In this document: in pieces, positions 7,854 to 27,153 of the stretch
Layout: each line of letters opens with the position of its first letter
How positions within the stretch are numbered: the first letter of the stretch is position 1
Assembly: GCA_948441255.1 (NCBI GenBank)
Contig: CAOJPS010000005.1
Coordinates: 1 to 32,654, forward strand
Direction of reading: 5' to 3'
Source of the DNA: an uncultured Eubacteriaceae bacterium
GTDB taxonomy: Bacteria > Bacillota > Clostridia > Lachnospirales > CAG-274
DNA: 32,654 bases
The notes under the pieces: generated by a model
What the model saw: the letters and a program-made list of their open reading frames with translations, nothing else
Databases searched by the model: none
What the model was told of the DNA's origin: nothing
Program-made: the position numbers and the translations under genes

Positions 7854-9413
7854 TTAATGCCTGAAATGACGCATTCCTGTAAATACCATAGCTATATTAT
7901 ATTTATTACAAGCATCAATAGATTCTTGGTCCCTAACCGAACCGCCGGGCTGAATAATCGCGGTAATACCTGCTTTAACGGCAGCCTCAACACAATCACT
8001 AAACGGGAAAAAAGCATCCGAAGCCAACACAGCCCCTTTAACCACATCTTCTCCAAGCTGTTCAATACCGTGTTCAATGGCCTGATTAGTCGCCCAAATA
8101 CGATTTACTTGTCCCGGGCCAACTCCAACAGACTGTTTATCTTTACCTATAGCGATACCATTTGACTTAGCGTATTTAACAATTTTCCAAGTAAAGAGCA
8201 AATCCTCCATTTCCTTTTCAGTAGGTTTTCTATCCGTAACCACTTTTAACTCACTTTCATTTAACAATTCATTATCTATATCCTGAACAAGAATACCGCC
8301 CGAAACTTTTTTAACATCAAAGGCATTATCCAGCTGTTTTCTTCCAATGTCATCCAGCTTAAGAATACGTATATTTTTCTTTTTTGTAAGAATTTCCAAA
8401 GCATCTTCAGTAAAATCAGGAGCAAGGACAATTTCAAGAAAAATTTTACTTATTTCCTCAGCGGTATCTTTTTCAATAACACCATTAGCCACAACAATAC
8501 CGCCAAAAATAGAAACTGGGTCAGTATTGTATGCTTTCACATAAGCGTCATAAATATTCACTCCGCTTGCCACACCGCAAGGATTTGAATGCTTACAAGC
8601 AACAACTGTTGGTTCGTCATATTCTTTCAAAAGTTCCAAAGCCCCGTGAGTATCATTAATATTATTGAAAGAAAGCTCTTTTCCGTGAAGCTGAGAAATA
8701 CCTGTAAGCATACCTTTACTGTTTCCAACTTCTTTATAAAAAGCCGCTTTTTGATGAGGATTTTCCCCATATCTCATATCCTGAACCTTTTCAAAAGTCA
8801 TACTCAAAGTTTGAGGATACTTCTCAATCCCCGCCTTATCACGAAGGTAATTTGCGATAAGAGTATCATAATGAGCAGTATGATTAAACACTTTTGCCGC
8901 AAGATAAAAATTTGTTTCAGCGGAAACCTTTCCTGTATTTTTAATTTCGTCAATAATTCTATCATAATCATCAGGGTCAATAATCACAGAAACATCTTGA
9001 TAATTTTTAGCGGCAGCCCTAAGCATTGTCGGGCCTCCAATATCAATATTCTCAATAGCCTCCTCAAGCTTAACCCCATCTTTTAAAATAGTCTGTTTAA
9101 AAGGATAAAGGTTTACAACCACCATATCAATAAGTTCAACACCAAGTTCTTTCACTTGTTTCATATGCTCATCGTTACTTCTCATAGCGAGAAGACCAGC
9201 GTGAATATTAGGGTGAAGTGTCTTAACCCTGCCATCAAGACATTCAGGAAATCCTGTAACCTCCGAAATACCAATAACATCAATACCAGCGTCGGCAAGC
9301 GTCTTATATGTACCGCCTGTCGAAACAATTTCAATCCCCAAATCTCTGATTTTTTTAGCAAACTCAACAATACCTGTTTTGTCCGACACACTTATCAAAG
9401 CTCTTTTCATCAA
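7854..9413 (-). CDS. purH: Bifunctional phosphoribosylaminoimidazolecarboxamide formyltransferase/IMP cyclohydrolase
   Basis: 519 aa; [52 protein letters not shown]. Confidence 0.97.
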
Positions 9414-9436
9414 TAAAAACTCCTTTCTTAGCTTCA

Positions 9437-9496
9437 GAAAACACCAGCAAACCCAAAGAATAAAAATTGTTTTTAATATCCTTTATACGGTGTTCC
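9437..9496. mobile_element. Internally deleted MITE copy (60 bp), family 1
   Basis: Minus strand GGAACACCGTATAAAGGATATTAAAAACAATTTTTATTCTTTGGGTTTGCTGGTGTTTTC joins the first ~35 and last ~30 nt of the 141-bp element; flanks TTCA/CTCA (imperfect 4-bp TSD). Confidence 0.65.
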
Positions 9497-9513
9497 CTCA
9501 TTTTTTATTTACC

Positions 9514-9565
9514 AAAAAAAGGCCGACCAAAGAACAGACTAATAAAATCTGCCCAGACGGTCGGC
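9514..9565 (-). terminator. Intrinsic terminator, expression platform of the ZTP riboswitch
   Basis: Minus strand GCCGACC...GGTCGGCCTTTTTTT; the 5' arm is the conserved 3' domain of the aptamer, so aptamer pseudoknot and terminator are mutually exclusive. Confidence 0.85.
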
Positions 9566-9620
9566 AAAGAAATTCCGTGCTCCCTTGTGGTAATCCACAA
9601 AATCCGCCAGTAACACAGAA
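9550..9620 (-). ncRNA. ZTP (pfl) riboswitch aptamer upstream of purH
   Basis: Minus strand TTCTGTGTTACTGGCGGATTTTGTGGATTACCACAAGGGAGCACGGAATTTCTTTGCCGACCGTCTGGGCA: 9-bp P1 (UUCUGUGUU/AGCACGGAA), GUGG-AUUA-CCAC hairpin, GGCGG:CCGUC pseudoknot and the diagnostic GCCGACCGUCUGGGCA block; position upstream of purH. Confidence 0.93.
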
Positions 9621-9626
9621 TATTTA

Positions 9627-9767
9627 GGAAACACCGCACAAAGGATATTAAAAATAATTTTTTAAAGTTAAAATTTCCGTTATCGTGTCATTTTTCAAGA
9701 AAAATAACACTATCACTTCAATTTTTTTAAAAAATTATTTTTATTCTTTTAATTATGCGGTGTTTCC
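9627..9767. mobile_element. MITE-like element family 1, copy A (141 bp)
   Basis: Starts GGAAACACCG and ends CGGTGTTTCC; near-palindromic along its length; flanked by exact TTTA duplication (9623-9626 and 9768-9771); near-identical to 27014-27153 reverse-complemented. Confidence 0.88.
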
Positions 9768-9768
9768 T

Positions 9769-11094
9769 TTATACAAATAATTTTATAAAAAATATAAATG
9801 CTATTACACACATTACAATATTAACATCTTTCTTTCTGCCTGTCAATAATTTTAAGATAACATAACTTAAAACCCCAAAAACAAGACCTTCAGCGATACT
9901 ATATGTAAAAGGCATCATAACCATAGACAAAAAAGCCGGAATAGCCTCTGTAAAATCCGAAAAATCAATTTTAACTATAGAATCAGCCATAAACAACCCC
10001 ACAACAATAAGAGCCGGAGCAGTAGCAAAGCTTGGAATAGCTATAAAAACAGGAGAAAAAAACAGCGAAACAAAAAACAATCCAGCAGCTGTAATAGCAG
10101 TTAGTCCTGTTCTTCCTCCCTGCGCCACTCCTGAAGCGCTTTCAACAAAAGTAGTTGTAGTAGAAGTTCCCAAAACAGCACCCGCTACAGTTCCTACAGC
10201 GTCGGCCAAAAGCGCCGGTTTAAGTTTAGGCAGCCTGCCATCTTTGTCAACAAAGCCCGCCTTTTCAGAAACCCCAATAAGTGTAGCAATAGTATCAAAC
10301 ATATCAACAAATAAAAATGAGCAAAGCACAACAATAAAATCAAAAAATTGAATTTCACCAAAATCAATACTTTCAAAAGCCGTAAAAATATTAATATCAG
10401 TAATAGACGGAGGAAGACTTACTATACTTTCAGGTATAAGGCTTGGTGTATAAGGTGACGGCTGATACCAGCCAATAAGCTCACAGCCTATTCCCATAGC
10501 GTATGTAATCAAAATCCCCCAAAGCAAAGCTCCCTTAACTTTATAATATGACATAACGCCTATAATAATAACGCCTATAATTGTAAGGCACGGAGCAACC
10601 TCGCCAATATCTCCCGCCGTAATAAAAGTACTCTCATCAGCAACAACAATTCCAGAATTTTTCAGTCCAATAAAAGTAATAAACAAGCCAATACCAACAC
10701 TAACAGAAATTTTAAGATTTTTAGGAATAGCGTTAAAAATAGCCTCTCTGACATTTACAAAAGAAATCAGAATAAAAATTATCCCCTCAATAAAAACAGC
10801 GCAAAGAGCAATCTCCCAGCCATACTCTTTAGCGACAGTATAAGCAAAATAAGCGTTAAGCCCCATACTTGGAGCAAGAACAAAAGGATAATTAGCAAAA
10901 AAAGCCATACATAGTGTACCTACAACGGCAGCAAGAACCGTAGCGGTAAAAACAGCGCTGGAATTCATACCCGCACCGCCAAGAATATCTGGATTTACAG
11001 CAAGAATGTATGCCATAGTCATAAAAGTGGTAACCCCAGCATAAATCTCTGTTAAAACATTTGTATTATTTTCTTTAAGCTTAAAAAAGTTCAT
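9769..11094 (-). CDS. NCS2-family (AzgA-like) purine/hypoxanthine permease
   Basis: MNFFKLKENNTNVLTEIYAGVTTFMTMAYILAVNP...; internal start at 11094 preferred to the ORF-track start at 11166 because GGCGGTGAATAT RBS precedes it. Confidence 0.92.
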   Translation of the reverse strand: MNFFKLKENNTNVLTEIYAGVTTFMTMAYILAVNPDILGGAGMNSSAVFTATVLAAVVGTLCMAFFANYPFVLAPSMGLNAYFAYTVAKEYGWEIALCAVFIEGIIFILISFVNVREAIFNAIPKNLKISVSVGIGLFITFIGLKNSGIVVADESTFITAGDIGEVAPCLTIIGVIIIGVMSYYKVKGALLWGILITYAMGIGCELIGWYQPSPYTPSLIPESIVSLPPSITDINIFTAFESIDFGEIQFFDFIVVLCSFLFVDMFDTIATLIGVSEKAGFVDKDGRLPKLKPALLADAVGTVAGAVLGTSTTTTFVESASGVAQGGRTGLTAITAAGLFFVSLFFSPVFIAIPSFATAPALIVVGLFMADSIVKIDFSDFTEAIPAFLSMVMMPFTYSIAEGLVFGVLSYVILKLLTGRKKDVNIVMCVIAFIFFIKLFV

Positions 11095-11127
11095 ATATTC
11101 ACCGCCAATATATAGTAAAATTATCAT

Positions 11128-11173
11128 TAAGAACTTGTTTTTAATCAAGCTAAAAAACTCACGCAAGTTCTTA
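11128..11173 (-). promoter_or_regulatory. Hairpin in the permease 5' leader
   Basis: Perfect 10-bp inverted repeat TAAGAACTTG ... CAAGTTCTTA within the leader between promoter and RBS. Confidence 0.5.
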
Positions 11174-11216: not shown

Positions 11217-11246
11217 ATTATACTAAACACCCACACCTTATGTCAA
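11217..11246 (-). promoter_or_regulatory. Sigma-A type promoter of the permease gene
   Basis: Minus strand TTGACA-18 nt-TATAAT (both boxes match consensus). Confidence 0.8.
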
Positions 11247-27013: not shown

Positions 27014-27153
27014 GGAAACTCCGTATAATTCAAAAATAAAAATAATTTTTAAAAAAAATTGAAGTGATAGTGTTATTTTTCCTGAAAAATGACACGATAA
27101 CGGAAATTTTAACTTTAAAAAATTATTTTTAATATCCTTTGTTCGGTGTTTCC
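27014..27153. mobile_element. MITE-like element family 1, copy B (140 bp, inverted relative to copy A)
   Basis: Reverse complement nearly identical to 9627-9767; TIRs GGAAACTCCG / CGGTGTTTCC; exact CTAA duplication (27010-27013 and 27154-27157). Confidence 0.88.

Follow-up and report, generated by a model that had tools for sequence, protein, structure and literature searches.

Introduction

In ZTP (pfl) riboswitches, ligand blocks strand displacement into the terminator (PMC10085676), and purH is among the genes most commonly placed under their control (PMC2864571). A small repeat within a riboswitch leader has been described in Streptococcus pneumoniae, where a BOX element lies between two T-box riboswitches in the trp leader and RNA-seq suggests that control still works (Croucher et al. 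2011, PMC3049150). A 2024 review of MITEs (PMC10969869) discusses promoters, processing by RNase III and possible connections with riboswitches. In the open-access literature we found no closer precedent involving a MITE and a metabolite riboswitch, whether of the ZTP or another class. Riboswitch leaders that contain a repeat are already documented, and we describe a further example, in which a lineage-specific MITE insertion lies in a purH ZTP leader that is canonical in other respects.

The locus lies in a 32,654-nt stretch of DNA (the window) from a 2.62 Mb genome in 282 contigs, 94% complete. We compared it with three genomes of the same genus (G001, G002 and G003) and one of the same family (G005).

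Organization of the locus

The features of the locus are as follows.

11217–11246, minus strand: predicted permease promoter, TTGACA-18-TATAAT, 12/12 consensus match
9769–11166, minus strand: purine permease gene, xanthine/uracil type (PF00860, Pfam 136 bits; permease-purH synteny in G001, G002, G003 and G005)
9818–9846, minus strand: predicted purH promoter in the permease 3' end, TTGACA-17-TAATAT with extended -10 (TGT), from motif and conservation
9768–9771, unstranded: copy of the target duplication (TSD) TTTA that holds the permease stop codon
9627–9767, minus strand: element A, a 141-bp MITE with terminal repeats GGAAACACCGCA
9623–9626, unstranded: TSD copy TTTA on the aptamer side, abutting P1
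9544–9624, minus strand: ZMP/ZTP riboswitch aptamer (RF01750, 69.1 bits)
9509–9565, minus strand: intrinsic terminator overlapping aptamer P3, GCCGACC...GGTCGGC plus T run (sequence; fold pair probability 0.99–1.00)
9436–9498, minus strand: element B, about 60 bp, a decayed MITE relative inverted with respect to A, lying after the terminator and before the purH ribosome-binding site
7854–9413, minus strand: purH, AICAR formyltransferase/IMP cyclohydrolase (PF01808 and PF02142)

The purH open reading frame was called from a TTG at 9413, but the next ATG, at 9410, is the likelier start. A sequence-only reading had given the minus-strand order as permease stop, element A, ZTP aptamer, overlapping terminator and purH, an order that the sequence, the RF01750 match and Pfam all bear out; its interval of 9514–9771 correctly covers the terminator through the permease stop. 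Element B (9436–9498) and the promoter at 9818–9846 were absent from it.

The worry that RF01750 might fail to score the proposed riboswitch proved unfounded. Using cmscan, the model matched at 9544–9624 (minus strand) over its full length (1–86) with 69.1 bits, above the gathering score of 39, and the match is followed by an expression platform and a purine gene, purH by Pfam. The terminator arms are GCCGACC from 9565 and GGTCGGC from 9528, with the T run after them. By its RF01750 match, the RNA is a candidate ZMP/ZTP binder. The duplication does adjoin P1, as had been claimed, but not at a distance of exactly 2 bp: the outermost P1 position of the Rfam model (9622–9571) is a U-U mismatch, so the model leaves 0–1 nt between the aptamer-side TSD and P1.

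Element A and its family

Element A is 141 bp long and AT-rich, with GGAAACACCGCA exact at both ends as 12-bp terminal repeats and no ORF of at least 80 aa. Copies of TTTA stand at 9623–9626 and 9768–9771, and the permease stop codon (9769–9771) falls entirely within the second. The exact ends and the two located duplication copies confirm the insertion of a MITE whose TSD includes the permease stop. The element has several features of a MITE: it is short, AT-rich and non-coding, with terminal inverted repeats, a TSD, many dispersed copies and empty sites in relatives.

Of the 85 segments of the genome that BLAST matches to element A, about 18 are full-length copies with at least 92% identity. 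Allowing up to two mismatches, the end motif occurs 483 times, against 76 for a reversed-pattern control. Exact copies of the 12-mer end number 127 here, compared with 22 in G003, seven in G001 and three in G002, and the control has none in any of these genomes. Element A is thus repeated far beyond chance, and by the exact counts the family has expanded most in this lineage. A further full-length copy, 95% identical and with a CTAA duplication, lies in the window at 27014–27153.

In a 396-kb sample chosen as element-rich, we found 65 paired elements, 40 of which have perfect 4-bp TSDs; the sampled TSDs are mostly TTAA, TTTA, TATA, TTAG and CTAA. By crude gene calls, 46 of the 47 sampled elements with a recognisable duplication are intergenic. 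Targeting of stop codons was considered and rejected: five of these 47 have a stop codon, by crude calling, no more than 10 nt away, and most are merely intergenic.

Searches for a parent transposon focused on PF01609, and around PF01609 transposase loci of this genome and its congeners there are no paired ends of the GGAAACACCGCA type. Inward-facing end pairs spaced 1.6 kb (contig C2) and 2.4 kb (contig C76) were rejected as candidates. The genes between them are ordinary, presumably encoding, as judged from the sequences, a D-Ala-D-Ala-carboxypeptidase-like protein (C2) and a CCA-adding-enzyme-like protein (C76), and each pair is therefore two separate elements. Elsewhere (L158, 961–1881), a DDE (PF01609) transposase ORF runs into a stray MITE end and then into unrelated sequence, a junction produced either by recombination of one element with another or by a chimeric assembly.

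Empty sites in relatives

Permease and purH are adjacent in G001, G002, G003 and G005, and in all four orthologous loci the element is missing between them. G002 provides a natural empty site, in which the stop TAA is followed by 12 nt and ACTGACGG; removing the element and one TSD copy from the window gives TAA, 12 nt and ACTGGCGG. The gap from TAA to ACTGRCGG is thus 12 nt in both G002 and the reconstructed window, and it is 11 nt in G005. The aptamer is intact in G002 (65.8 bits) and kept in G005, which also lacks the element. The sequence-only reading had proposed an ancestral junction with the permease stop a few nucleotides from the aptamer and had suggested ortholog comparison as a check. 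Real empty sites with identical (G002) and near-identical (G005) spacing now confirm that junction, and the element does not belong to the conserved leader.

Predicted start of purH transcription

The motif TTGACA-17-TAATAT, with an extended -10, lies at 9846–9818 on the minus strand, inside the permease gene and no more than 80 nt from its end. Its predicted start is near 9811, about 44–45 nt ahead of element A, and 0.01 occurrences of the exact motif are expected in the window. In the alignment, G001, G002 and G003 have it at the same codons, and G005 has TTGACA-17-TAGTAT there; G001 keeps it though the riboswitch is gone from that genome. Across five genomes, no other 29-nt window of the permease gene is as conserved in nucleotides (23 of 29 positions invariant), and its ten codons have a synonymous codon identity of 0.84, compared to 0.53 gene-wide (permutation p ~0.001). 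Part of the conservation is protein-level, since the stretch also encodes the conserved residues LTGxxKDVxI.

Ancestral purH had been proposed either to be read through from the permease or to use a promoter inside the permease gene. The conserved motif largely settles this choice in favour of the predicted intragenic promoter. Read-through may add to purH transcription, since the permease has a perfect promoter of its own at 11246–11217. With a conserved promoter upstream of it, the element most likely forms part of the purH leader, 3' of the promoter and 5' of the aptamer. It appears from this locus that a conserved promoter within the preceding gene can serve a purH riboswitch.

Folding of the leader

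Element A folds on itself with -49.5 kcal/mol (z = -9.8), in agreement with the earlier suggestion that it adds a hairpin of about 140 nt, and it forms a closed hairpin in minimum-energy leader folds. Mean aptamer pair probability is 0.85 with the element and 0.79 without it, and terminator stem pair probability is 0.99–1.00 either way, in folds that ignore the pseudoknot and cotranscriptional kinetics. There is no promoter-like site of at least 9/12 within 9627–9767. We rejected element A as a terminator because no U-tract follows its stem. Lacking both, the element should neither start nor stop purH transcription.

The closest relative of element B, a decayed short subtype, is a 60-bp copy in L208 (2153–2212). 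Elements A and B are 84% complementary over 44 nt and pair together in the full-leader fold. This pairing would form only after the terminator has been passed; it could alter the leader beyond that decision, affecting stability or translation and not the switch itself.

Proposed explanation

We consider it probable that the MITE entered the promoter-aptamer spacer of a purH ZTP leader whose main promoter is the intragenic one, and that switching was retained. The element would have transposed into a short, weakly constrained spacer between the existing promoter and the aptamer. purH would be mostly transcribed from the permease 3' end, possibly with some read-through from the permease promoter. 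The transcript would carry element A as a 141-nt self-paired hairpin 5' of the aptamer, whose start would shift from about +43 to near +188. As the element pairs with itself, aptamer and terminator would be left free, and bound ZMP/ZTP should still prevent the terminator from acting and turn purH on. The insertion, the empty sites of the relatives, the intact aptamer and terminator and the conserved promoter motif can be read directly from the sequences; from these we infer actual use of the promoter, retained switching and little net effect on expression. Nothing we found predicts a changed ZTP switch logic. The locus is a clean case of a mobile element in a riboswitch leader, with natural empty sites and with congeners that have lost the same riboswitch, and it allows the tolerance of a riboswitch for upstream RNA to be tested.

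The hairpin might instead be a site of RNA processing or stability control, of RNase III or RNase Y type, setting the permease mRNA apart from the purH leader and tuning each of them. A very stable hairpin at the permease stop would suit this role, and RNase III cuts Correia transcripts (PMC10969869), but most purH leaders could be made independently of the permease transcript, given the intragenic promoter. We regard this alternative as possible but unlikely.

Riboswitch loss in the genus

Under the insertion into a tolerant spacer that we favour, the riboswitch would still work; a less likely reading is that the element impairs it and that purH control is decaying in this lineage. Relatives give some reason to consider this. 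In G003 the aptamer is degenerate, with P1 visible but P2 and the conserved core not, and RF01750 is unmatched at E-values up to 5. In G001 the permease-purH gap is only about 60 nt, and RF01750 has no match anywhere in that genome. With G003 at 78% completeness and G001 at 9% contamination, absence from the whole genome is less certain there than the state of the locus itself. ZTP control thus appears to have been lost repeatedly within one genus, and since two of four congeners have a lost or degraded riboswitch, it should not be assumed to be under strong selection at present. Two elements also flank the aptamer-terminator unit in the window. Against impairment, the window aptamer (69.1 bits) outscores those of all relatives tested, and its terminator and predicted fold are intact. 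We consider impairment doubtful.

The loci L095 (1441–1500) and L096 (1250–1500) keep the intragenic promoter with the purH ZTP riboswitch missing (G001) or degenerate (G003). In a genome labelled Candidatus Epulonipiscium (L021, 1–1670), a purine riboswitch, a permease and a ZTP riboswitch occur in succession.

A parallel at the lysine riboswitch

The sole lysine riboswitch of the genome, in the asd leader (L188, 1497–1827; G000:C108:8196–8526), shows the same order of promoter, MITE and aptamer. From its sequence, we take the gene below it to be aspartate-semialdehyde-dehydrogenase-like. The element is 140 bp long with a TTAG duplication, and the predicted promoter is TTGACA-17-TATATT (11/12, extended -10). 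Immediately upstream of this promoter there is another element end. G002, G004 and G005 have a similar promoter 36–47 nt before the lysine aptamer with no element between.

This leader bears on whether an outward promoter on the element now drives purH, as the sequence-only reading had allowed. Other MITEs, such as Correia, do carry promoters (PMC10969869), and the end of the lysine-leader element forms with its flank a weak TTGAAT-17-GATAAT (9/12). However, element A faces purH with the opposite end, has no site of that strength inside it and already has a strong conserved promoter upstream. An element-borne promoter is therefore not supported, and we judge it very improbable.

The parallel also raises the idea that the family repeatedly builds promoter-hairpin-aptamer leaders, the hairpin being a useful insulator or RNA-processing separator from the upstream gene. 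If so, an insulator hairpin would let the riboswitch fold independently of the upstream coding sequence. We give this little credence. A preference of the family for riboswitch leaders is hardly credible and we do not claim it: an element lies within 20 nt upstream in two of the 11 leaders checked (ZTP and lysine, with seven T-box, one TPP and one SAM leader having none directly upstream of the aptamer), and the rough chance probability of ~0.003 for two includes the ZTP case through which the element was found, leaving ~0.075 for at least one among the other ten. The AT-richness and weak constraint of promoter-aptamer spacers suffice to account for the two insertions. An Rfam scan of 300 kb of element-rich contigs found one T-box and tRNAs only.

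Comparison with known systems

In its canonical aptamer, overlapping terminator and canonical gene, the leader resembles known ZTP riboswitches ahead of purH (RF01750; PMC2864571, PMC7266159), from which it departs only in the flanking inserted elements and the intragenic promoter. The element A family shares with the bacterial MITEs Correia, RUP and QMITE (PMC10969869, PMC3049150) short length, AT-richness, terminal inverted repeats, a TSD, multiple copies, intergenic location and a strong hairpin, but has its own terminal repeat, GGAAACACCGCA, and a 4-bp TSD. Like the pneumococcal BOX/T-box leader (PMC3049150), the locus places a small non-autonomous repeat in a riboswitch 5' leader to give a composite RNA. 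Whereas BOX is modular and sits between two T-boxes, the repeat here is a 141-bp MITE with terminal inverted repeats before one ZTP aptamer, in the spacer between promoter and aptamer.
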